A stretch of DNA of 64,000 bases from Liolophura sinensis (Eukaryota > Mollusca > Polyplacophora > Chitonida > Chitonidae), in contig NC_088297.1 in the NCBI RefSeq assembly GCF_032854445.1, forward strand, positions 5,269,991 through 5,333,990, given 5' to 3'. The translations under genes and the position numbers were made by a program. Shown here piece after piece: positions 19,201-55,003 of this stretch. Positions within the stretch are counted from its first letter, which is position 1. Every line of letters begins with the position of its first letter. A model generated the notes under the pieces. That model saw nothing but the letters and a program-made list of their open reading frames with translations, had not been told where the DNA came from and ran no database searches.

Positions 19201-22200
19201 TGCCAGATCTTCCCACTTACGGCCGGAGAGGAAGCCAGCATTAGCTGGACTTGAAGCTTTGTTTGAATTTTGTACTTAAGTCATAAGACATTTGATAAGT
19301 AATGGCTTTAGTACATAACTGACTTCAGTAATTATTAAATGAATATTACACCCTACATTATTTTCATGGACTGATTGACACTTCACCGGCTGTACGTGGA
19401 AAGATCTGCCAGCAACCCACCACAAAGCTGGCCGTCGCAGTATAAGTGAAATATTGTCCAGTACGGCGTTAAACACCAATCAAGTGAATAAGTAAAATAA
19501 TTGATTGAGGCTTGACCTACAAGTTTGCAAGCTTGAATTAAGCCCTGAGACTGGTTTTGTTTGTGGTGTTAAGTAGAGAAGTCTGTCAGGTATCTGCTGA
19601 AGACCTGTGGTTTATTCTGGACATTTCAGATTCCTTAACTCTTAAACCTTACCACCCTCGTATCAGTAATACCTCTTCGGTACCACATTCAACATTAATG
19701 AAACTAATAAGCAAGTTACTGTAATACCGTGTCTAAGGGGCTTTTATGTACTAAACCTAAAAATAAAATTAAAAAAAAATAAATAAATAAAAATAAATAA
19801 AAAAATAAAATTAACTCTATGTGATCATTATTGTGCACTATTTAGTACATTTCCTTTTACATCATTTCTTTGGTTTAAACACCAATTAAAAAAATCATCT
19901 TTTTTTTTTAACCTTTACACAAGGGAAAATTCTTGAATATTGCCTTAAATGACAATCGAGTGTAACTGCTTACATTGAGTTGTTCTAATTAAATTGCCTA
20001 CTGTTTTCAGATAACAGACGGGAAAAGAGAGCTAATAAAACAGTTTGATCTCAAAGCCCGACATTTTATAGGTAAGTGCAGTTTTACAATAAATATTATA
20101 TGTAACATTATTATAATGTGACATTAATCTTTATGGCATGCTGACTCAGTGATCAGTGTCCAGCTCAAAATGATCGCTAGTACGATTTTCTGACTTTCAA
20201 CACTTACAGAATTTACCTCTTTGGTGGCCTTTTGGTTATAGTGTCCGCCCCGATGTCAGGAGAAAGACTTTAAGGCTGGTTCTTTTTTGCTGCCTTGCTT
20301 GGTACTGAACACTAAGAGATTAAAGCGAGGAAACAGCGCTGGTTGACCCTTTGTCAGTATAGTGCAGCTGGATGGGGTGTCATGTCTGGTGTCTTTGGCA
20401 TAATATTTCAGTGGCAGCAGCACTTTGGCAGCATGGACTCTACCACATGAAGGCGTACTATTATTCTTCAACCTTTTCACATGTTTGCAAGCTGTTTATT
20501 TAAGCATATTCTAAAGGCATTATTCTGTGCAGACTGGCAAAATTACACTTTTTGTGAAGCCCAGAGATTGGCCAATCCACCAATGTAGTTTTGTCTCCAA
20601 AATTTCAAATGTACATAAAGTGCACTGAAAGTTACTCTGTCATATGCGAAAAGGCTGAGAAATTAGCATAGTATATGTACACAGATTTAATGACTCCTCA
20701 CCATTGCATGACTGAATAATGACTTCCTGTTCTATTTTGGTGGCATGAACTCTGCCACAGGGAGACATGGTATATGTACACACACTTAATGACTCCTCAC
20801 CATCATATGACTGAATAATAACTTCCTGTTCTATTTTGGTGGCATGAACTCTGCCACAGGAAGACATGGTATATGTACACACACTTAATGACTCCTCACC
20901 ATCATATGACTGAATAATAACTTTCTGTTCTATTTTGGTGGCATGAACTCTGCCAGAGGAAGACATAGTATATGTACACACACTTAATGACTCCTCACCA
21001 TCATATGACTGAATAATGACTTCCTGTTCTATTTTGGTGGCATGAACTCTGCCACAGGGAGACATGGTATATGTACACAGACTTAATGACTCCTCACCAT
21101 CATATGACTGAATAATAACTTCCTGTTCTATTTTGGTGGCATGAACTCTGCCAGAGGGAGACATAGTATATGTACACAGACTTAATGACTCCTCACCATC
21201 ATATGACTGAAAAATGACTTCCTGTTCTATTTTGGTGGCATGAACTCTGCCACAGGAAGACATGGTATATGTACACACACTTAATGTCTCCTCACCATCA
21301 TATGACTGAATAATAACTTCCTGTTCTATTTTGGTGGCATGAACTCTGCCAGAGGGAGACATGGTATATGTACACACACTTAATGACTCCTCACCATCAT
21401 ATGACTGAATAATAACTTCCTGTTCTATTTTGGTGGCATGAACTCTGCCACAGGAAGACATGGTATATGTACACACACTTAATGACTCCTCACCATCATA
21501 TGACTGAATAATAACTTTCTGTTCTATTTTGGTGGCATGAACTCTGCCACAGGAAGACATGGTATATGTACACACACTTAATGACTCCTCACCATCATAT
21601 GACTGAATAATAACTTCCTGTTCTATTTTGGTGGCATGAACTCTGCCAGAGGGAAACATAGTATATGTACACACACTTAATGACTCCTCACCATCATATG
21701 ACTGAATAATAACTTCCTGTTCGATTTTGGTGGCATGAACTCTGCCAGAGGGAGACATGGTATATGTACACACACTTAATGACTCCTCACCATCATATGA
21801 CTGAATAATAACTTCCTGTTCTATTTTGGTGGCATGAACTCTGCCACAGGAAGACATAGTATATGTACACACACTTAATGACTCCTCACCATCATATGAC
21901 TGAATAATGACTTCCTGTTCTATTTTGGTGGCATGAACTCTGCCAGAGGGAAACATAGTATATGTACACACACTTAATGACTCCTCACCATCATATGACT
22001 GAATAATAACTTCCTGTTCTATTTTGGTGGCATGAACTCTGCCACAGGAAGACATGGTATATGTACACACACTTAATGACTCCTCACCATCATATGACTG
22101 AATAATAACTTCCTGTTATATTTTGGTGGCATGAACTCTGCCAGAGGGAGACATAGTATATGTACACACACTTAATGACTCCTCACCATCATATGACTGA

Positions 22201-25200
22201 ATAATAACTTCCTGTACTATTTTGGTGGCATGAACTCTACCACAGGGAGACATGGTATATGTACACACACTTAATGACTCCTCACCATCATATGACTGAA
22301 AAATGACTTCCTGTTCTATTTTGGTGGCATGAACTCTGCCAGAGGGAGACATGGTATATGTACACACACACTTAATGACTCCTCACCATCATATGACTGA
22401 ATAATAACTTCTTGTTCTATTTTGGTGGCATGAACTCTGCCAGAGGAAGACATGGTATATGTACACACACTTAATGACTCCTCACCATCATATGACTGAA
22501 TAATAACTTCTGTACTATTTTGGTGGCATGAACTCTGCCAGAGGGAGACATAGTATATGTACACACACTTAATGACTCCTCACCATCATATGACTGAATA
22601 ATAACTTCCTGTTCTATTTTGGTGGCATGAACTCAGCCAGAGGAAGACATAGTATATGTACACACACTTAATGACTCCTCACCATCATATGACTGAATAA
22701 TGACTTCCTGTTCTATTTTGGTGGCATGAACTCTGCCACAGGGAGACATGATATATGTACACACACTTAATGTCTCCTCACCATCATATGACTGAAAAAT
22801 GACTTCCTGTTCTATTTTGGTGGCATGAACTCTGCCACAGGGAGACATGGTATATGTACACAGACTTAATGACTCCTCACCATCATATGACTGAATAATG
22901 ACTTCCTGTTCTATTTTGGTGGCATGAACTCTGCCACAGGGAGACATGGTATATGTACACACACTTAATGACTCCTCACCATCATATGACTGAATAATGA
23001 CTTCCTGTTCTATTTTGGTGGCATGAACTCTGCCAGAGGGAGACATAGTATATGTACACACACTTAATGACTCCTCACCATCATATGACTGAATAATGAC
23101 TTCCTGTTATATTTTGGTGGCATGAACTCTGCCAGAGGAAGACATAGTATATGTACACACACTTAATGACTCCGTGACAAAGTAATATCTTTCTCAGGCT
23201 GTATGTGGGAAGGTCTGGCAGCAACATGCGGATGGTTGTGGGTTTCTCCCCGGCTCTGCCTGGTTTCCTCTCACCATAATGCTGGCCGCCATTGTATAAG
23301 TGAAATATTCTTGAGAACGGCATAAAACACCAATCAAATAAATAAATAAATATGAACTTTCTGTTCTGGGAATATGTGTGCAGATTGCTTCGTGCAAGTA
23401 TATTTGCAGGTAACACAAGCATGGACCCAACACTGTCTCTCATCATGACAAACCTGGCAGAGATCAAAGAAAACCACCTGGTCTTTGATCCTTTTGTAGG
23501 CACAGGTGAGGTGTCCAGTTGATCAGTGTCATGTGTGGTGTCTCTGGCATTGCCTTCTAGTGAGGCAGCACTGTGTAGAAAATGCTGGCATTGGAACTAT
23601 GTAGTCCTGTACTGTTACAGCATGGCTATGACAAGACTGAGCTGTAAATAAGTTGTCAAGAGCATAGTAGTGTCATTGTTTCATTATAGTCTCGCGAAGT
23701 CACACATGTTTAAGCGAGAGAAGGTGGGGCTCTTGAAAACTAGCTTACCCAAAAGAGGGTATTTCATAGCAAAACTATGGGCACCGTTGAGCTGACAGAC
23801 CCCACTATGCAAGATATATATGTTCAGTCTAGCAGCTACTGTAAAGACATTTAGTCCCGTTTAGTCGTGGGAAATCTGTGCAACACTGTTGAAATGTCAG
23901 TTCAGCCTATTATATAATTTTCCTCCAAGTTTTACAAGCTCTGCCGTGTGTGATTTAGGAACAGCAACAACAGAATGCAAGATAAAACGTTCATGACAGT
24001 CATTCAGATTCTTCATCAGCAGGAGACCATGACATAATCTGGAACCCACAAAGGCAGATATTTTATCTTGAAATGAGGGGGGAGATAAGGCCTATAGATA
24101 TAGACTAAAACGTTCGTGGGTTTTCTGGCCAGTTCATCATTTCCAGCTGTCCTGAATTTCTTGGCTTCTTTTGATGTTTGTCATACAGGTATACCTTTAT
24201 CTCAACAGGTATAAATCTGATCCATGGTTTTTAGTTCATATCGGACTAAGCGCTTCAAAAAGTTGGCAGGATGTTCACATGTTGTCGGATACGTCCTTTG
24301 TATTAAAAAAAATTTTAATTACATAGAGTTTACCATACTTATTATATTTATTTGATTGGTAATTTACGCCGTACTCAAGAATATATCACTTGTACGGCAG
24401 CGGCCAGCATTATGGTGGGTGGAAACTGGGCAGAACCCTGGGGAAACCCACGACGATCCGCAGATTGATGGCAGACCTTCCCACACACGACTGGAGAGGA
24501 AGCCAGCATGAGCTAGACTTGAAGTCATAGCGACCGCATTGGTGAGAGGCTCCTGGGTCATTACGCTGCGCTAGTGCGCTAACCAAGTGAGCCATGGAGG
24601 TCCCTTACTTATTATAAAAACTGCTTTCAGTTAGTAAAAAAACTACCAGTTTTTATTTTCAATAATAATGAAGTCAAGGCCTCACCACTGAACGTAAAAA
24701 GTTTCTCAAGATTTGAATCCACATGCTGGGATCCTCATGAGTCGTAAGCAGTGTGTAATTTTTATTTTGTTTATTTCTCAGGGAGTTTGCTTGTTCCGAG
24801 CGCTCATTTTGGTGCATACGTCCTCGGCACGGACATTGACTACCTCATCATACATGGAAAGGGTATATTAAGAATGGTTGTTGTGTTGTGATTATAACAG
24901 CCGCTGTATGTAGGTTTTTTTTTTTTGTGGTGTCTGAAACTTTGGCATATCCTATTTATTTATTTGATTGTTGTTTTACACTGTGCTCAAGAATATTTCA
25001 CTTATACGACGGCAGCCAGCAACCCGAGGGAAACCCACGACCATTCGCAGGCTGCTGACAGACCTTGGCATATCCTAGATGAGTTGATTAACATCAGCCT
25101 TATACAGGGTGGACAAGTTGTTACTCTAAATGGGCAGGAAACCTTTCTTTTTACTTGATTTCAACTTTTTTTTAGCCATACAGGGTATGAGTGCTGCTCA

Positions 25201-28200
25201 TGTGGCTAAAACTACATGTCTTTCAGTCATGGGTTCAATTCTATTCTTGGCCAGAGGATTTGAAAAAATCTCGGCTGTCAGTTGTTCAGGCCTACGTGAA
25301 AACCACTTGCCTTCCAGCTGTATGATGTTTGTATAAGCTACATGTGAGGAAAAGTTTAACAGCAACTTGCCAAAGGTCAGTGGTTTGTTCCATCGGTAAA
25401 ACTGGCCACGAGCTTAAAATGAGAAATTCTTACTCACATGTCAGATATTAAAAACAGTCAAATAAAAAATATCTTTACAGCAGCCTTAAATGTGTAGTTA
25501 AAAAACCACAAAATCTTTAAAATATAATATTTAGCAGCTGATTTCTTTGAATTTCAGGCAGATCTAGCCGACACAAGCAAAAATTCCGGGGCCCTGACGA
25601 GAACATACGGGCTAATCTGCGACAGTACAACCTTGAGAAGTTTTATTTGGATGCCATGTTAGCGGACGCGTCCAGACATGACATGTGGCGACAGCATGAA
25701 TTGTTCGATGCTATTGTGACAGATCGTGAGTTTCGATGCATTTCAGCATTTCGTACCATTGCCATTTCATACACCAGTTTAGTGTCAATTTATGCAGTCA
25801 GTTTTTGGAACATAAGCAAACTCTCAACCAAGCCCCGCTGATTGTATGATCAAGCAGCAACCCGTGGCTCTATTTATGTTCCAAACGCAAAACCGTGCGC
25901 TTTTGGATTGGGTAGTAAATGAGAAGAGTTCAAGGCTTACTTTCACTCTGTGAAAGCTTTTTAAATTAATTTTTAGAACTTCTCGCAAAATTACTTATGA
26001 TATTATGGACATGAGGAAATGAATTTACAATGTTTTGCAAAAGTGGTTGAAGTTTTTTGTAAATTGCATTAAGGGTTACGCAGTGTCGGCTTCATCCATC
26101 TGTCTGTTAACATTTTGGCATGAGCAAAAAAATATCGGCTTCATAGAGTTACAAGATTTTCTCACTTTTTGTACACCTCCAGAGCATAAGCCTAATGAAA
26201 ACAAGTCCCTTCACTTTGAAATTGACCGACCTTTTTTTATTGTAATATTTTATATTATATTTTCGTGTCCATTTTCTTCTGTAGTTGAAAAAACATAATT
26301 TTTGAATCCCTCTCTTGTGTGCGACAAATATGGTCAGTATCTTGCCAAAGGTGGGAGGTTTTATCTATCAAACTAAAAGCCATTGTATGAATGAAAAATT
26401 CTAGAGTGTAGGATCAAACTCGAGAAAACGAGAAAATCCAGCTGTGTATGGAAGACTGCCAAATATGGAGCCATTTAGCAATTAACTGTTTTCATTACAG
26501 CTTTATCTTTGTGCCAGCAACCTGCAGATGGTCATGGGTTTCCCTTTGGCTCTGTCAGATTCCTCCCATTTTAATGTTGGCTGCCATTGTATATTAGGAA
26601 TATTCTTGAGGACAGCATACAACACCAATCAAATAAATAAACAGGTCTGTCAGCAATCTGCGGATGGTTGTGGGCTTCCTGTCGGCTCTGTCAGATTCCT
26701 CCCATCTGAATGCTGCCATTGTATATTAGGAATATTCTTGAGGACAGCATACAACACCAATCAAATAAATAAACAGGTCTGTCAGCAATCTGCGGATGGT
26801 TGTGGGCTTCCTGTCGGCTCTGTCAGATTCTTCCCATCCTAATGCTGGCTGCCATTGTATATTAGCGAAATATTCTTGAGGACAGCATACAACACCAATC
26901 AAGTAAATAAACAGGTCTTTCAGCAACCTGCGGATGGTTGTGGGCTTCCTGTTGGCTCTGTCAGATTCCTCCCATCCTAATGCTGGCTGCCATTGTATAT
27001 TAGCGAAATATTCTTGAGGACAGCATACAACACCAATCAAATAAATAAACAGGTCTCTCAGCAACCTGCGGATGGTTGTGGGCTTCCTGTCGGCTCTGTC
27101 AGATTCCTCCCATCCTAATGCTGGCTGCCATTGTATATTAGCGAAATATTCTTGAGGACAGCATACAACACCAATCAAGTAAATAAACAGGTCTTTCAGC
27201 AACCTGCGGATGGTTGTGGGCTTCCTGTCGGCTCTGTCAGATTCCTCCCATCCTAATGCTGGCTGCCATTGTATATTAGCGAAATATTCTTGAGGACAGC
27301 ATACAACACCAATCAAATAAATAAACAGGTCTCTCAGCAACCTGCGGATGGTTGTGGGCTTCCTGTCGGCTCTGTCAGATTCCTCCCATCTGAATGCTGC
27401 CATTGTATATTAGCGAAATATTCTTGAGGACAGCATACAACACCAATCAAATAAATAAACAGGTCTTTCAGCAACCTGCGGATGGTTGTGGGCTTCCTGT
27501 TGGCTCTGTCAGATTCTTCCCATCTTAATGTTGGCTGCCATTGTGTATTAGCGAAATATTCTTGAGGACAGCATACAACACCAATCAAATAAATAAACAG
27601 GTCTGTCAGCAACCTGCGGATGGTTGTGGGCTTCCTGTTGGCTCTGTCAGATTCCTCCCATCTTAATGCTGCCATTGTATATTAGCGAAATATTCTTGAG
27701 GACAGCATACAACACCAATCAAATAAATAAACAGGTCTCTCAGCAACCTGCGGATGGTTGTGGGCTTCCTGTTGGCTCTGTCAGATTCCTCCCATCCTAA
27801 TGCTGGCTGCCATTGTATATTAGCGAAATATTCTTGAGGACAGCATACAACACCAATCAAATAAATAAACAGGTCTCTCAGCAACCTGCGGATGGTTGTG
27901 GGCTTCCTGTTGGCTCTGTCAGATTCCTCCCATCCTAATGCTGGCTGCCATTGTATATTAGCGAAATATTCTTGAGGACAGCATACAACACCAATCAAGT
28001 AAATAAACAGGTCTTTCAGCAACCTGCGGATGGTTGTGGGCTTCCTGTTGGCTCTGTCAGATTCTTCCATCTTAATGTTGGCTGCCATTGTGTATTAGCG
28101 AAATATTCTTGAGGACAGCATACAACACCAATCAAATAAATAAACAGGTCTCTCAGCAACCTGCGGATGGTTGTGGGCTTCCTGTTGGCTCTGTCAGATT

Positions 28201-31200
28201 CCTCCCATCCTAATGCTGGCTGCCATTGTATATTAGCGAAATATTCTTGAGGACAGCATACAACACCAATCAAATAAATAAACAGGTCTCTCAGCAACCT
28301 GCGGATGGTTGTGGGCTTCCTGTTGGCTCTGTCAGATTCCTCCCATCCTAATGCTGGCTGCCATTGTATATTAGCGAAATATTCTTGAGGACAGCATACA
28401 ACACCAATCAAGTAAATAAACAGGTCTCTCAGCAACCTGCGGATGGTTGTGGGCTTCCTGTTGGCTCTGTCAGATTCCTCCCATCCTAATGCTGGCTGCC
28501 ATTGTATATTAGCGAAATATTCTTGAGGACAGCATACAACACCAATCAAATAAATAAACAGGTCTGTCAGCAACCTGCGGATGGTTGTGGGCTTCCTGTC
28601 AACTCTGTCAGATTCCTCCCATCTTAATGTTGGCTGCCATTGTATTTTATAGTGAAATATTCTTGAAGACAGCATAAAACACCAATCAAATAAAAAAAAT
28701 AATTTATGTTACCATATAAAAAAAATAATAGTTACATGAATTCTGGTGTTACCATTTACAGCTCCGTATGGCATCAGAGAATCTGCCAGAAGAATCGGCA
28801 CCGAGAAAGAAGAAGTAATCCTAACTGAAGAAAAGTAAGACTGTTATGTTCAACAAAAAGAAAAACTTCACACTTGTATTTATATGTTTTATTTCATTGG
28901 TATTCTATGCTCTACTCAAGAATATTTCACTTATACAACGGCGGCCAGCATTATGGTGGGAGCAAACCGGGCAGAGAGCGGGGGGAACCCACCGCCATCC
29001 GCAGGTTGCTGGGCAAACCTTCCATGTACGGCTCGAGAGGAAGCCAGCATGAGCTGGACTTGAACTCACAGCAGCCACATTGGTGGGAGGCTCCTGGATC
29101 ACTGAGCCGCACTGGCTCTCTAACCCCCTCGGCCACGGAGACCCTACCACACTTGTAATCTTGAAATAGAAGTACATGTATTCAGTGTATATTTATGAAA
29201 ATATATGTTCATTGATTCTTCCTGTTATCATCCTGGTAACAGGACAGAAGAAGGCAAGTGATTTTTATATATGAAAAAAAAATGTGCAGAAAAATAATAC
29301 ATGAGGCCCCAAAAACAAATTTCCCACTGGTCATCAACCTTTTGAGGCCTGACAGCAACTGGATGGTTGTGGGTATCCCCTGGGCTCTGCCCGTTTTCCT
29401 CTCACCATAATGCTGGTCGCCGTGGTATAAGTGAAATATTCTTGAGTACGATGTAAAACACCAATCAAATAAAATAAATAAATCAACCTTTCGTGCTTTT
29501 TGCAACCATATTCTGAAGGCATTATTCTGTGTGGACTTATAAACTTCTACTTTTTGTGAAGCCCTGGCCAATCCAAACAGTGTAGTCTCCAAAATAAAAA
29601 TGTACATAAATTGCACAGAAAGTTGCTCTTTTATATGCGAAAGGTTGAGGAATTAAAATATCCGTTATTTAGACACTGTGGACTTTGCAGTAATATTGTG
29701 ATTACTGCGATTTCTCACTGGTGATTTGTCATTTTGTTTTCTAGTATTATGATTACTGCGATTTCTCACTGGTGATTTGTCATTTTGTTTTCTAATGTTG
29801 TGATTACTGCGATTTCTCACTGGTGATTTGTCATTTTGTTTTCTAGTATTGTGATTACTGCGATTTCTCACTGGTGATTTGTCATGTTGTTTTCTAATGT
29901 TGTGATTACTGCGATTTCTCACTGGTGATTTGTCATTTTGTTTTCTAGTATTGTGATTACTGCGATTTCTCACTGGTGATTTGTCATGTTGTTTTCTAGA
30001 GTATTGTGATTACTGCGATTTCTCACTGGTGATTTGTCATTTTGTTTTCTAATGTTGTGATTACTGCGATTTCTCACTGGTGATTTGTCATTTTGTTTTC
30101 TAATGTTGTGATTACTGCGATTTCTCACTGGTGATTTGTCATTTTGTTTTCTAGTATTGTGATTACTGCGATTTCTCACTGGTGATTTGTCATTTTGTTT
30201 TCTAGTATTGTGATTACTGCGATTTCTCACTGGTGATTTGTCATTTTGTTTTCTAGTATTGTGATTACTGCGATTTCTCACTGGTGATTTGTCATTTTGT
30301 TTTCTAGTACTGTGATTACTGCGATTTCTCACTGGTGATTTGTCATTTTGTTTTCTAGTATTGTGATTACTGCGATTTCTCACTGGTGATTTGTCATTTT
30401 GTTTTCTAGTATTGTGATTACTGCGATTTCTCACTGGTGATTTGTCATTTTGTTTTCTAGTATTGTGATTACTGCGATTTCTCACTGGTGATTTGTCATT
30501 TTGTTTTCTAATATTGTGATTACTGCGATTTCTCAATGGTGATTTGTCATTTTGTTTTCTAGTATTGTGATTACTGCGATTTCTCAATGGTGATTTGTCA
30601 TGTTGTTTTCTAGTATTGTGATTACTGCGATTTCTCACTGGTGATTTGTCATTTTGTTTTCTAGTACTGTGATTACTGCGATTTCTCACTGGTGATTTGT
30701 CATTTTGTTTTCTAGTACTGTGATTACTGCGATTTCTCACTGGTGATTTGTCATTTTGTTTTCTAAATGGCATATTGGGATGACATTTAATTTTATATCT
30801 CCTGAAAATTTGTATTTGTGACGTGGAATACATTTTATCAACAATCAGTGCTTAGTAGAGGTTCTGATGACAGTTTACGTTTATAAATCAACGTATCAAA
30901 TTGCATCAGATAAGTCAAAGTTCTGAAAAATGAGAAGTATTTTAAAAAATGACATTTTCATGGTTTTGAACAAGTCATGACAAGTCTTTATCCCACAGGG
31001 TTTTTTTTTTGTCTCAGTTTTCTCTGAATATTACATGTTAAATGCGGGAAGTTTTCTTCAGTTTGTCCTATTTTCAAAGCCAGTTTCACAGTGTTGTCAT
31101 ACATGGTCCAAGTTCTGCGTTAACATTGGAAAAGGGCTTAAGGGATTTTTTTTTTGTTAATTTTCAGCAAGGATGGTCACATTCCTCAGCGTGTGAACTA

Positions 31201-40615: not shown

Positions 40616-43600
40616 TTATGATTTGCTGCTACCAGGGTTGAGATTCTCTAAGATCTTCTCAATGGTCTCTAAAGATTTTGTCTCTGTAATCTGCTCTCGG
40701 GACTGCTGAGTCTGAAAATGACAAACAAGTTTTTGCACATAAAATTCTGTTCAAAGTTTGGGATTTCTAAAGTACTATTTGATTATACTGAATGTTAATA
40801 AATCACTTCATTCTTCCTACAAACACAAACAACTTCCCTTACCTGACAAAATGAGCCATAACAACCAATGCTTCCCTTACCTGACAAAATAATCCATAAC
40901 AACCAATGCTCCCTTACCTGACAAAATGAGACATAACAACCAATGCTCCCTTACCTGACAAAATAAGCCATAAAAATCAATGCTTCCCTTACCTGACAAA
41001 ATGAGCCATAACAACCAATCCTTCCTTTACCTGACAAAAGGAGCCATAACAACCAATGCTCCCCTTACCTGACAAATAAGCCATAACAACCAATGCTTCC
41101 CTTACCTGACAAAAGGAGCCATAACAACCAATGCTTCCCTTACCTGACAAAATAAGCCATAACAACCAATACTTCCCTCACCAGACAAAATGAGACATAA
41201 CAACCAATGCTTCCCTTACCTGACAAAATAATCCATAACAACCAATGCTCCCCTCACCTGACAAATAAGCCATAACAACCAATGCTTCCCTTACCTGATA
41301 AAATGAGCCATAACAACCAATGCTTCTCTTACCTGACAAAATGAGCCATAACAACCAATCCTTCCCTTACCTGACAAAATGAGCCATAACAGCCACTGCT
41401 TCCTTTACCTAACAAAATGAGACATAACAACCAATGCTTCCCTTACCAGACAAAATGAGACATAACAACCAATGCTTCCCTTACCTGACAAAAGGAGCCA
41501 TAACAACCAATGCTCCCCTTACCTGACAAATAAGCCATAACAACCAATACTTCCCTCACCAGACAAAATGAGACATAACAACCAATGCTTCCCTTACCTG
41601 ACAAAAGGAGCCATAACAACCAATGCTCCCCTTACCTGACAAATAAGCCATAACAACCAATGCTTCCCTTACCTGATAAAATGAGCCATAACAACCAATG
41701 CTTCTCTTACCGTACAAAATGAGCCATAACAACCAATCCTTCCCTTAGCTGACAAAATGAGCTATAACAACCACTGCTTCCCTTACCTGACAAAATGAGA
41801 CATAACAACCAATGCTTCGCTTACCTGACAAAAGGAGCCATAACAACCAATGCTTCCCTTACCTGACAAAATGAGCCATAACAAGCAATGCTTCCCTTAC
41901 CTGACAAAATAAGACATAACAACTAATGCTCTCTTTACCTGACAAAATAAGCCATAACAACCAATGCTTCGCTTACCTGACAAAAGGAGCCATAACAACC
42001 AATGCTTCCCTTACCTGACAAAATGAGCCATAACAAGCAATGCTTCCCTTACCTGACAAAATAAGACATAACAACTAATGCTCTCTTTACCTGACAAAAT
42101 AAGCCATAACAACCAATGCTTCCCTTACCTGATATTTTTCTTTCAGTTGTTTTGCTGCCCAGGCAGCATACTTCGTGTTTGACTGTCTTTCTGAGGCATT
42201 TTTGGAATTCATGGAAGCTAGAGTACTGGCAGACTGAAATGAAAAAGATCTATGTATTTATCAGATTGATATCTATTTATTTGATTGGTGTTTTACGTTG
42301 CACTCAAGAATATTTCACTTATATGATGACCAGCATTATGGAGGGAAAAAAATGGGCAGAGAATAAAGCCTGAGAATAAGTTGGACTTGAACTCACAGCA
42401 ACCGCACTGATGACCCCCCCCACCATCCCCAGCCCCACCCCCCAAATGGTATATGGTATACCAGCTCGAACATCACACATGAAAAAACTCTAGTAACTTG
42501 CCAAAGGTTAGTGGTTTACCCCGCAGTTCACCCCAGCCATAAAACTGACCCTTTTTAGAGGACATTTATCTCTCACCAATACGGTATACCAGCTCGAACA
42601 TCACACATGAAAAAACTCCAATAACTTGCCAAAGGTTAGTGGGTTACCCCGCAGTTCACCCTTGCCATAAAACTGACCGTCATTCTCTAAATACTACCAC
42701 TACTGCTCCACTGAACAAGAATCAGTGCCCTTCACATCACTTACCAATAACAGACCATACAGAGCTCTCATGTTGTTGGGGTTCAGTTTGATAGACTGAG
42801 AGTAATATGCCCGAGCTATCTCCAGGTTTTCTGTTCCCCCTTGCGTGTAACGGATCTGAAAAGCAAGAAACAAGACACTATTCGTTTAAACAGAGTCTTG
42901 TGAAAGCAATCCATCAAACTTCCTTTTATATATGACCAGGAGAATATCTAAGAGACAACCACAGCACCAAGAGAAAGTAAACGATCTACACCAAAGCTGC
43001 TGACAAAGTTGCCACGGAAACAGCCAGAGAATGATTCCAGCACATGACCTGATTGGGTAAGTGTCTGATAAATTGCAGTGAGGAAGCACTTCAACCTTGG
43101 GAGCCAACGAGGGGTCCCCCTCCCCTTGTTCAATTCCTCAGTTTACCATTCACAGATTAGTTAAAAAAAAAGTTCGAAATAAATAAGGTTAAATAAGATC
43201 ACTAAAACAGTAAGAGCTAGATACTAGCGCATGACCTGAATTGCAAAGAAGCACTTTAGTCTTGTGAGCTGGTAAGGGCCCCACTAGTTCAATTCCTCGG
43301 TTTACCAATCAAAGATTAGTTGAAAGGAAAGAAGACACCAGACGAAATGATTATACTCATATATAAAATATCCCACTTAGAATTTGAAAAGCAAATCTCT
43401 TTCCTGTTGCAATGGTGCGTATCTGAAATATCCAACTTCAAAGTGTTAAGCAAAATCGAAAGCGCTGTCATGTTATTACTTTGAATCTGTTAGGCGCAAG
43501 TTACTTCTATAACCTGAGTACGCACCAGTTTCCGCTGATGTCACCCAAACCGTTTTTTTTCCTTTCAGCCATATCAGCGTGGGGTAGGGGTGACCCAACA

Positions 43601-46600
43601 CTGTATTTCCAGATAAAATTTATTTATTTTATTTATTTGATTGGTGTTTTGCGCCGTACTCAAGAATATTTCACTCATACAACGGCGGCCAGCATTATGG
43701 TCGGAGGAAACCAAGCAGGGCCCGGGGGAACCCACGACCATCCGCAGGTTGCTGGCAGACCTTCCCACTTACGGCCGGAGAGGAAGCCAGCATGAGCTGG
43801 ACTTGAACTCACAGCGACCACACTGGTGAGAGGCTTCTGGGTCAATACGCTGCGCTAGCGCGTTAACCAACTGAGCCACAAGGCCCCTCCAGATTAAAAG
43901 GTGAGTTACTACCTTCCTAGCTGTTTATGTCTATCTCCTCATCTGTTCTGAAATAACTACGTAAAGTTAAATCTTTTCTGTTGTCTTTACTCTGAAGCGA
44001 GTCATCTACTCACGTCAGCGTATCTCTGCTGGTACAGGTGATTGTTTGGGCTGGACATGATTAGCTCCTCCACACAGAATGCTGCTTTCTCATAATCCTG
44101 CTCCTGAGTGTACATGTCACACAGCTCTAACCACGCGTCAAAGTCAGCCACAAACCTAAAGCAGAAGAGATGAACAGATACAGTCAAGACTGAGGCATTT
44201 AAAACTGGGCTTAGATCAGTCTTGCGACCGGGAGCTGGGGCTAGTAGATCGAAAAAAAGGCTTGCAATCACCAACATGTTCTACTTTTCTGTAACTCGAA
44301 GCATCCAGTTCAACTACTCTATGTTTGCTTGAGTCCAATTGGTCACCATTGGTCACAATCACAAGGTTTTTTCAAACTTAAGGTTGACTTTGTGAAGTTG
44401 GACACAATTGCTTAGAACTGCTGGCTTTAAGGTGAGCTGCTAAAGTTTTTGATCCTAAACTAAAAGTTATCAGAGAGCACACATGTGTATATTACATGTC
44501 TGTAAAATGCTAAAAGAGGCAATTTTTTTTATTTTTGTTGAAGTGAAAGTACTCACTCCTCTAAATACTCATTTAGCTTTTTGATGGCTTCTGGCATCTT
44601 GTGTTCAGCTCTCAATATGGCCACTTCTCGTTTCTTGGCAAACTGAAAGGAAAAGAAAAGGAAAAAGAATTTGTTTCATGCAAAACCATTTTTTTTCTTT
44701 TTTTTTTTTTTATCGGAAATGCCAACTTAAAGTGAAAGCAATGAAATTTATGACTGTTGAAACATACATTAGCTAAGTCACAGGATTTACATCAGAAAAG
44801 GTTAGCTGATGACAGACAGATAGCCACATCACATGATTTACATCACAGAAGACTAGCTGATGACAGACAGATAGCTAAGTCACACGATTTACATCACAGA
44901 AGGTTAGCTGATGACAGACACACAGCTACATCACAGGATTTACATCACAGAAGGTTAGCTGATGACAGACAGATAGCTAAGTCACAGGATTTACATCACA
45001 GAAGGTTAGCTGATGACAGACAGAGAGCTAAGTCACAGGATTTACATCACAGAAAACTGACGACAGAAAGATAGCTAAGTCACAGGATTTACATCACAGA
45101 AGATTAGCTGATGAAAGACAAATAGCTAAGTCACATTATTCACATACCAACACACGAACAATCGCAAGAGGCCTCAAGAAGAATTACTGATGTGATAGAT
45201 AAAGGATTTACTCTCAACAAGATTTGAACATGGATCTTCACATCCACAGTCCAGCACTGCCAATGGAGCTAAAGGGAAATTCACACTACCCACTGGTTGT
45301 GTACACACTGGAAAGCTGCTCCAAGTATACCTATGTAGAACATTTTAACCCTTGCAAAGAGAATATTTATGACGCTGACAACAATTGTTCTTATAGGAGA
45401 AGAAAATCTCAATATCAATCAAATACCACTGAAAAAAGTATGCATTTCCTCGCAGGTGCATGCAATAAAAAAATTCTAATATGTAACTGAAGTTGATAAA
45501 TTATAAATAAAGTCAGCGCCAAAATCAGCTGTGGGCGACTCCATTTTGCCTAAGAACTAGTCCCGAGATCTTCTGTGTTAGGAGGAGAATTGCCGTCTCA
45601 TTGGCTGAGAGGCACCACACCCGCAGCATAAACTACAAGGTGTTAAAGATGGAGGACGCCATGGACTCAGGGATTTATGCCAGCTTTGCCATTTTCACGC
45701 TTTACGTGTATGGCGAGGAAAAATCGCAAAATTATGCAGCAGGCACCAGCAGATAGAAAAAAATGTGCTTTTTCAGCCTTTAGTGTCATGTTTTTACGTT
45801 TTCTTTTCCTTTAAATGTGTTGAGAGTCTGAACTAAAAATCAATTTACATTATGATGATACTGCTAGGAAGATTTATAATGACATCTTTCAGACAGGATC
45901 GCCTCCCTTGACAATCTTTCAGACAGGATTGCCTCCCTTGACACTCAGCTCCTCCTTCCCACAAAGCACTAACCAGAGACAACACCACCTCTAGTAAGCT
46001 GTAGGGCCAAATCAACTTAAGTTTGTTGATTTAAGGGCAGAATAAAACTTAATCCCAATGTCAGGGGAGGGTATAAATGTAAAACTCGATGAATCTGTGG
46101 GAAAAAGACTTTCCGGGTAAGATCAAGGTCGATTTCAGTTTTACTTTATTACATGTTTGGATTTTTCACTGTCGGTTTGTTCACAAAACAATAAAATTGG
46201 TGTCGCCCAGTAGAAATTTGTGATCTGGCAGCGCCTTCTAGTTAAGATTTAGGTTGACATGCAAGAGACAGAATTATCCTCCCACAAAGAGACACAAACA
46301 ATGCACCCCCCGACATACACACACACACCCTCCCCAACACACCCCCTCACCCCCCCCCCCCCCCCATCAGTTTACCATGTTAGCAGGATCTTCCTCTCTG
46401 ATGGACGCATACACTTGCTGAGCTTCACTGTAGCTGTGAAGTAAACAAAAAGAAAAGTGTTACAAATCATCCGATGTGATAACCCTGCACTAAGTGCAAC
46501 CTGGGAAACATTTTGCAGTAGTGATTTATTGTCGCTATAGCATATTTTTTTTTCTTCCTTCTTTCCTTTTTCTTTTTTTTTTTGTTTTAATTTGATGGTC

Positions 46601-53700: not shown

Positions 53701-55003
53701 TTGCATAAGAATTATTCTGTTATTCAGTATATATGACAATTTATTTTAACTTTATTTAGACTTTATGTACTTTTTTAAGAAAGAATAAACTTCAGATGTT
53801 TTTAATTTCAAATGTGTAAGACTTAATGTTAAGTTAAGAATGCAATGCGTAAAAAGTGGTAAGTCAGGAGGTATATCAGATAACTGCCAAAGGTCAGTGG
53901 TTTACACTTGGCACTCTGATTTCTTCCACCCATACTAAAACCTGACTCCCTCTCCGGACGTACGTGGGAAGGTCTGCCAGAAACCTGCGGATGGTCGTGG
54001 GTTACCCCGGGCTCTGCCTGGTTTCCTCCCACTAATGCTGGCTGCCGTCGTGTAAGTGAAATATTCTTGAGTACGGCGTAAAACACCAATCAAATAAATA
54101 AATAAATAAATAAAACCTGACCGCCATCATATATGTAAAAAATCATTCAGCAGCCAAATAAACAAACAAAATAATCTGTATGTTTCTGATTGATCTCATC
54201 GCTTCAGATTGGAGACTTGGAGCAAGAAAAGCGTGAGCTTGAGAAGAACGTGAACGAGCTGAAAGCAAAGTGTGAACAGATTGAGAAGAGAGCAGCTGAA
54301 CAGAGACAGGTAGAGGAGAAGAAACACACTGAGGAGATCCAGTTCTTAAAGAGAACAAACCAGCAGCTCAAGGTAAGGCTTTAATGAACTCACCAGGCAA
54401 CACTGTTGTGCTCCAACCCACAGACGCTTTGGATATCCACTTTAAATGCAGTTTTAACATCGCCATGCGCTTAGGCTAAAATTAAAAGTTTTCTGTTTCG
54501 GGTAACAGGCTCAGTTTGTCAATTGTCTTTATCAAGTGTACTAAAACTAAGTGAATTAAACACAGCATATCATGATATATCTCATGTGTAGATCGCCATA
54601 CATTTACAATGGCATGCCAACCCTAGCAGCCTCAGTTAAAGTGGACGCTAAATTCATGGAATAACACAGCCGTTTGCCTAGAAAAAACACTACCAAAAAC
54701 ATGAAACAAGGGTATTCTGCCTTATCATCTGGCTCTAGATCGGGGGGGGGGGGGGGGGGGGGGGGGGGGCTCTGCTGTTTTATAGGATACACTGAGTTGC
54801 TCCCCTTGTCTTTCGCAGTGTAGTGATTCGCTTGATTGTTCAGAGCAAGCAAAGTTTTTTCACGAATGTCTTATAAAAAGGCTGCTGAACTCCACGTGTT
54901 TCCACTCATGTGGTAAATGTTGAGTTGCTTTGTTGTGACTTTCACTCTTTTACTGTTTTCTTCACAGACTCAGCTGGAAGGTATAATTGCACCCAAGAAG
55001 TAA
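50785..55003 (+). CDS. DNALI1: DNALI1, axonemal dynein light intermediate chain (p28)
   Basis: Light chain of the inner dynein arms of motile cilia and flagella, binding inner-arm dynein heavy chains. Exons: 50785-50865, 51303-51445, 52205-52374, 53269-53447, 54208-54372, 54968-55003, all AG/GT and in phase, giving 257 residues (human about 258). The N-terminus MIPPNASLVKYDNPVLVSRN is nearly the family signature; the middle has REWTENG-type and RETGICPVRRELYSQCFDEL segments, then INCAERGLLLLRVRDEIRMT. Residues from about 190 form a long coiled coil rich in Lys, Glu and Gln (EKRELEKNVNELKAKCEQIE), ending in GIIAPKK. Intron 3 holds a 28-bp array, intron 4 a SINE and intron 5 a 28-base G run on the sense strand. 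Head-to-head with EMC2. Confidence 0.95.
51446..52204. other. DNALI1 intron 2, nothing recognised
   Basis: AT-rich intron without SINE or array. Confidence 0.5.
52736..52985. repeat. 28-bp tandem repeat, about 9 copies, in DNALI1 intron 3
   Basis: Unit TACAAGTAATGCTACTCCAT plus CTGTTACA, period 28 bp; one unit near 52795 lacks CATA. Confidence 0.92.
53035..53195 (-). mobile_element. dispersed repeat family B, copy 5, reverse, next to the 28-bp array
   Basis: Reverse complement reads GTTTGGAAGATAAGATGATA, TCAACACCAAAAGTAATATA, AATATTTGCCTCTAAAAAT. In its own orientation the array follows it, as at 49610. Confidence 0.55.
53938..54116 (+). mobile_element. SINE, 3' two thirds
   Basis: CTCCCTCTCCGGACGTACGT to (AAAT)n; AAAACCTGAC before it and AAAACCTGACC after it is the likely target duplication. 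In DNALI1 intron 4. Confidence 0.88.
54742..54769 (+). repeat. 28-base G run on the sense strand of DNALI1 intron 5
   Basis: An uninterrupted run of G between ATC and CTC. In RNA or single-stranded DNA it could fold as a G-quadruplex. The exact length is uncertain because homopolymers are error-prone in assemblies. Confidence 0.85.

Follow-up and report, generated by a model that had tools for sequence, protein, structure and literature searches.

A minisatellite of donor-bearing units that begins at a 5' splice site of EMC2 in Liolophura sinensis

The 64,000-nt stretch of Liolophura sinensis DNA analysed here (the window) carries on its minus strand the gene for EMC2, identified from the match of an upstream exon to EMC2 structures; the last two coding exons, taken together, also match EMC2 (Table 1). 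The penultimate coding exon, called exon 9 in the original prediction, is preceded by the acceptor tttcatttcag and ends, in phase 0, with AAATATCAG. The intron behind it is short and is the last one before the EMC2 stop codon; it opens with GTAAGGGAAG, closes with CATTTTCAG and is followed by the last coding exon from 40711. Most of its 1417 nt are occupied by a tandem array.

Table 1. Coordinates in the window of the EMC2 features and of the array in the last intron (a slash marks the splice junction)
Feature	Position	Strand	Evidence
Upstream EMC2 exon inside an open frame	44002..44280	-	EMC2 structures, E=4.9e-17
Penultimate coding exon of EMC2, 105 nt	42129..42233	-	acceptor before, donor after, translation; EMC2 match at E=0.004 with last coding exon
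Exon-adjacent donor CAG/GTAAGGGAA, first in the series	42120..42131	-	sequence and segmentation
Whole intron, 1417 nt	40712..42128	-	segmentation and sequence
Minisatellite, with 34 full units (37 or 38 bp each; 42128-40843) and a 10-bp partial unit (40842-40833)	40833..42128	-	TRF, segmentation
First ten bases of a unit, then a unique intron tail of 121 nt that holds the genuine acceptor TTGTCATTTTCAG	40712..40842	-	segmentation
Last coding part of EMC2 with stop codon TAA	40616..40711	-	sequence and EMC2 match with penultimate exon

TRF reports the array at 40833-42132, with a period of 38, 34.4 copies and 88% matches, and segmentation agrees with it: the 34 tandem units first described behind the EMC2 donor are real. 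Unit 1 begins at intron position +1 (42128), so the array reaches the exon border itself, and the full units extend to 131 nt short of the intron end; the partial unit reads GTAAGGGAAG, and the genuine acceptor lies outside the array. Among the 34 full units 23 are distinct, and blocks of several units recur (units 2-4 are identical to units 6-8, and units 14-15 to units 17-18), as would be expected from unequal exchange or slippage. With head-to-tail units within the 10-100 bp range, unit variants and block duplications, the array has the makeup of an intronic minisatellite. Near-identical blocks are difficult to assemble and a single assembly was examined, so the array might have been collapsed or expanded in assembly; given that two thirds of its units are distinct from one another and that such arrays are present at many places in the genome, we regard an artefact as very improbable, although the copy number may still be off.

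The unit appears to be private to this intron. The 16-mer TTTTGTCAGGTAAGGG has at least 16 matches in the 609-Mb assembly and the 25-nt unit interior, allowing up to three mismatches, at least 30, all of them within the EMC2 array; a dispersed origin of the unit, which we also considered, is unsupported, the interior having been located only in this array among the matches counted. Nor is the exon copied in the unit: exon end and unit end share only TCAG without a break. The original suggestion that the exon border itself seeded the array thus holds in that the array begins at the genuine donor, but not in the sense of a copied exon. Since the array starts exactly at a real donor and unit 1 is the start of the intron, the donor within the unit is no accident.

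GT is kept in 33 of the 34 units (one has CT), in line with the original count of a single loss, and AG in 30 (three have TG, one CG), so that AG/GT is unbroken at 30 of 35 junctions when the exon border and the partial unit are counted. Over these 35 junctions the match to CAGGTAAGT reaches 8 of 9 places at 25, 7 at six and 6 at four. When the consensus unit is scored against the donor consensus CAG/GTAAGT over nine places, it matches at 8, a value attained in 0.44% of 20,000 shuffled units, and its combined pyrimidine-plus-donor score is attained in 0.2%. The acceptor side is moderate, with 8 pyrimidines in the 12 places before CAG in the consensus; among 23 other donor arrays (described below), 18 have fewer and 5 as many or more.

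It was this juxtaposition that had led to the proposal of recursive splicing, in which the upstream exon would be joined to the AG of a unit, a donor regenerated and the intron removed stepwise; every unit would then serve as a ratchet point, its 38-nt recursive-splicing exon running to the next donor. The units do place a T-rich stretch, CAG and GTAAGG side by side, their combined score exceeds that of 99.8% of shuffled units, and their pyrimidine count surpasses that of most other donor arrays. Moreover, fly ratchet points require a short cryptic exon, about 50 nt long and followed by a donor (PMC8605326), and each EMC2 unit formally supplies the like, a 38-nt exon with another donor about 38 nt after its own. 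Against this, 5 of the 23 other donor arrays match or exceed the pyrimidine count, and the geometry is unfavourable. Within the unit, the A that most resembles a branch point (in TTAT) is 16 nt short of the AG end and only about 21 nt from the donor of the same unit, as compared to a human minimum of 45-47 nt (PMC11291888); by this limit there is too little room between sites one unit apart, and hops of at least two units would be needed. A two-unit hop would give about 59 nt from donor to branch-point-like A, which would be permitted by these limits, known from human introns. Splicing is reported for human introns down to 43 nt, and introns of 43 and 49 nt lacked functional branch sites (PMC4463651); even the 43-nt intron exceeds one 38-nt unit. 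Finally, fly recursive splicing is confined to very long introns and uses acceptors stronger than ordinary ones, as described in PMC6110457, and the EMC2 intron spans just 1.4 kb.

The conservation of the unit points the same way. The original prediction had itself named, as evidence against recursive splicing, a core that varies as much as its surroundings in the unit, and that is what was found: the nine core columns (-3 to +6) differ from the consensus in 18 of 306 cells (5.9%) and the other columns in 59 of 986 (6.0%; Fisher P=1). Among the 38 circular nine-column windows, 20, the core among them, have as few differences as the core or fewer. Only one of 68 GT cells is altered; this retention is not special since 17 of the 38 columns are invariant, 14 of these outside the core. 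The core thus bears no sign of purifying selection when cells are compared within this one array of one species, while the loss of GT in just one unit of 34 leaves room for weak constraint; GT and AG columns together differ in 5 of 136 cells versus 72 of 1156 elsewhere (P=0.34). Because of the block structure the alignment cells are not independent, and claims about selection are weakened accordingly in either direction. With a core that lacks extra conservation, a spacing too short by human limits and an intron of this length, we consider recursive splicing of EMC2 at the array very unlikely.

Arrays of donor words are not restricted to EMC2. The tandem triple of CAGGTAAG with spacers of 12-42 has 895 matches in the 609-Mb assembly (424 forward, 471 reverse), and among the roughly 100 matches listed, which we clustered by hand, there are at least 23 arrays within C1:0-80.2 Mb. 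Three control words matched to it in composition gave 285, 349 and 554 triple matches. Within C1:0-80.16 Mb, the matches listed contain 23 arrays of the donor word as compared to 6, 4 and 5 of the three control words (ratio 3.1, P=0.0005; control arrays were likewise clustered by hand, and one is shared by two control words); when the longer stretches listed are taken, whose lengths of 171, 169 and 137 Mb are approximate with that of contig 3 estimated, 23 donor arrays stand against 48 control arrays (ratio 1.9, P=0.01). Per genomic word, arrays of CAGGTAAG are therefore about 1.9 to 3.1 times more frequent than those of the three control words, where word counts take in the copies inside arrays. 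Such an excess is not predicted by strict randomness. In triple matches per word, on the other hand, the donor word is unexceptional at 895/30,137 (3.0%), the five other words ranging from 1.5 to 3.6%: 285/14,616 (1.9%) for the control GAATGGAC, 349/22,934 (1.5%) for the control GAAGTCAG, 554/23,190 (2.4%) for the control CAGGAATG, 614/23,103 (2.7%) for GACTGAAG and 378/10,576 (3.6%) for GTAAGGAC. For this reason we hold the enrichment of donor-word arrays to be suggestive. A separate idea, that the left edges of arrays pile up at the donor junction, was not borne out when the 23 donor arrays were inspected by eye, partly because several array edges sit within an exon.

Arrays seeded across exon-intron borders do occur elsewhere in this genome. 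Donor-bearing arrays adjoin exons in at least three other genes, with firm exon support at the donor-side edge: L014 lies at an exon of POLR3A/RPC1 of RNA polymerase III (PDB, 3e-08), L015 at one of glycosyl hydrolase 31 (8.6e-14) and L016 at one like choline dehydrogenase (8.5e-06). L016 has in addition nine PDB matches at 0.1-0.3, which we take to be oxidoreductases of one superfamily. The exon end is carried in the unit before the donor over 32 nt with one mismatch in L014, 28 nt with none in L015 and 22 nt with one in L016. Judging by these copies, the AG/GT unit in the three arrays plainly arose by repetition of an exon end with its donor, and AG/GT comes about automatically when exon end and donor are repeated together. 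In the same three arrays the stretch before CAG is coding exon, which is a further argument against recursive splicing. EMC2 is at the opposite end of the range, with only TCAG common to unit and exon end.

Weaker matches came from deoC, deoxyribose-phosphate aldolase, at L017 (0.0013), from TSP1 at L021 (0.0034) and from a PHD finger (PHD_5) at L023 (0.00039), the last lying mostly within the first repeat copy; a PDB search of the frames of L017, L020, L021 and L023 returned nothing notable. The frames of L005, L020 and L022 seem coding by their look, and the database searches run on them gave no support. In L014, L016 and L017 the exon frame reaches a stop soon past the junction.

A comparison of edges should be read with the sampling in mind: frames were partly chosen by eye, and search effort was unequal between edges. 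The donor-side edge yielded 34 open frames from 20 of the 23 donor arrays, of which 20 (18 arrays) were searched in Pfam, 10 in NCBIfam and 6 in PDB; 12 of 17 control arrays yielded 21 frames, of which 10 (from 10 of the 17 arrays) were searched in Pfam and NCBIfam, as was one frame each from the antisense far edge of 20 of the 23 donor arrays. At a threshold of E<0.005 in Pfam or NCBIfam, matches on the donor side were found for L012, L015, L016, L017, L021 and L023. L012 (tRNA_SAD, 0.0039) was dropped since the match falls within the repeat, L023 was counted separately on account of where its PHD_5 match lies, and L014 stands outside the edge counts, its support being from PDB, in which no control frames were searched. 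The 20 antisense edges searched gave one exon, near array L003 (Aminotran_3, 9.5e-12), and the 10 control arrays searched no match below 0.005, their best value being 0.03 in Pfam and in NCBIfam alike. When L023 and L012 are set aside, exons were found at 4 of 23 donor-side edges versus 1 of 40 antisense and control edges (P=0.055; searched edges only, 4 of 18 versus 1 of 30, P=0.059), and with L023 at 5 of 23 versus 1 of 40 (P=0.021; searched edges, 5 of 18 versus 1 of 30, P=0.022); against antisense edges alone the figures are 4 and 1 of 23 (P=0.17). The donor-side excess over antisense and control edges is borderline, with P between 0.02 and 0.06 according to how L023 is counted.

Taking these observations together, we put at roughly three in four the probability that the EMC2 array is an ordinary minisatellite, for the most part neutral, which started from the 5' splice site of an EMC2 exon and grew intronward by block duplication, with the first donor in use and the rest mostly silent decoys. 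Growth would have proceeded through repeated duplication of blocks of a few units, every copy bringing a donor and the AG before it, so that most donors in the row are nearly equal and the first one is next to the exon. The spliceosome would most likely pair this exon-adjacent donor with the single acceptor at the intron end; the remaining donors would be decoys, mostly silent with occasional noise, and the array would be tolerated because the exon and the first donor remain intact. The splice noise offered as an option in the original prediction finds a possible place within this account. Seeding at a donor explains the AG/GT architecture, the position of the array, the unconserved core and the sibling arrays, the EMC2 array being on this reading one member of a kind that recurs in the genome. 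It leaves unexplained the low similarity of the EMC2 unit to the exon end; the seeding is no clean copy of the border, and the first event possibly joined TCAG microhomologies. The array looks younger than the intron, because 131 nt of the latter, donor and acceptor included, stay when the full units are discounted.

More tentatively, we speculate that 5' splice sites have repeatedly given rise in this genome to satellites, in which exon ends with donors or, as in EMC2, the donor alone have multiplied into rows of near-identical donors, that a strong rule picks the exon-adjacent donor, and that some of these arrays may serve as banks of alternative donors or as 38-nt ratchet exons. We think this doubtful at present, yet far from negligible.

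The predicted translations indicate what the choice of donor would mean for EMC2. With no unit included the normal C-terminus results; one unit would add 13 new residues, the last of which spans the junction, and then a frame-shifted last exon, and any larger number of units would bring a stop codon in the second of them. For three or more (up to six units were tried) this stop lies at least 72 nt upstream of the last junction, and mRNA decay is expected when a stop sits that far before the last junction. As later donors would alter the C-terminus or end the protein 13 new residues on, it is the first donor that should be productive and that normal EMC2 requires. Alternatively, the inner units might act as decoy donors and acceptors that pair unproductively, slowing the removal of the EMC2 intron or giving rise to alternative C-termini and unstable mRNAs through intron retention or detention. 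That 25 of the 35 junctions match the donor at 8 of 9 places, together with the altered C-terminus from one included unit and the early stop from three or more, would suit such a role, and a literature on decoy exons and intron retention exists. The core again shows no sign of constraint, and we rate a decoy function as unlikely.

The original prediction had further raised the possibility of a U1 snRNP sponge shielding the transcript from premature polyadenylation, which the many tandem U1-complementary sites would accommodate. The sponge would be without an obvious target: among ten polyadenylation hexamers sought in the 1417-nt intron nine, AATAAA and ATTAAA included, are missing, with a single AATGAA as the only occurrence, and the intron is both short and the last before the stop codon. 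This is, in our estimation, the least probable of the explanations considered.

Several known systems resemble the EMC2 array in part. Zhuo et al. are said to have described, in 2007, human introns derived from tandem arrays, with direct repeats and matching intron boundaries; the EMC2 array shares the direct repeats and the matching boundary, but only its donor lies at an array edge and its acceptor is beyond the array. Minisatellites that lie at exon-intron boundaries in human segmental duplications, their units measuring about 30 bp, can alter splicing and form introns (PMC2812944), and they too are short-unit repeats at such a boundary. They have about 4 units on average and transcript evidence, as compared to 34 units in EMC2, a conserved housekeeping gene, where most units bear a full donor. 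In the Rogers model introns are gained by tandem duplication of AGGT segments, and fission yeast genes carry multiple 24-bp AGGT duplicates (described in PMC4974935); there as in EMC2, tandem AG/GT units stand in a row and pairs of units offer GT...AG. In that model an exonic segment is duplicated to provide both GT and AG and a new intron is made, whereas in EMC2 nothing beyond TCAG is common to unit and exon end, and the intron seems to predate the array. Ratchet points (PMC6110457, PMC8605326) have in common with EMC2 the AG/GT juxtaposition and a downstream donor, and differ from it in intron length, in step size relative to the human minimum and in the conservation of the core. In the open-access literature searched we found no report of satellites that consist of 5' splice sites or recursive sites, and no paper there that brings together recursive splicing, tandem repeats and minisatellites.

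Arrays of the EMC2 type, with dozens of near-equal donors that vary in number and sequence behind an exon of a housekeeping gene, would be natural tests of how cells select the correct splice site. Studies of the choice among equally strong 5' splice sites usually rely on a few copies in minigenes. If the first donor alone is used, the array puts strict limits on how donors are chosen; if inner donors are used, it is a source of new isoforms. A simple origin for AG/GT arrays that imitate recursive splice sites is also relevant to motif-based searches, which such arrays could mislead.

Other arrays seen in the course of this work merit mention. Unit length is a multiple of three in L015, L021 and L023, and the frame is open over the first copies seen, so these arrays might be translated. 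The 39-bp array L015 (G000:C1:26352600-26354900) extends the frame of the glycosyl hydrolase 31 exon and the 45-bp array L021 (G000:C1:71465000-71467300) that of the TSP1-like exon over the copies viewed, both carrying CAG/GTAAG, while the 48-bp in-frame array L023 (G000:C1:80154700-80156700) starts at or within a stretch like the first half of a PHD finger and could be translated as repeated half-fingers. In the 47-bp array L003 (G000:C1:534200-538700) CAGGTAAG is antisense to the nearby class-III aminotransferase exon. Two control arrays about 12 kb apart, L039 and L040 (G000:C4 near 19611000 and 19622754), have nearly identical left flanks and are a duplicated segment with the same minisatellite.

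The window itself is rich in arrays, 32 hand-merged intervals covering 16,065 of its 64,000 bases, where short rows rich in A/T are not counted. At 29694-30765 an array of 21 units of 51 bp has a plus-strand unit end, TTTTGTTTTCTAG, that is acceptor-like, and the array also lies within a 293-aa minus-strand open frame, 51 being a multiple of three. At 20667-23173, 25 copies of a 99-bp unit, again a multiple of three, accompany a 491-aa minus-strand open frame. The 138-bp unit repeated about 16 times at 26515-28698 resembles by eye a dispersed element found elsewhere in the window (ATATTCTTGAG...ACACCAATCAA), and this array is perhaps a dispersed repeat turned tandem. A run of 28 G occupies 54742-54769.
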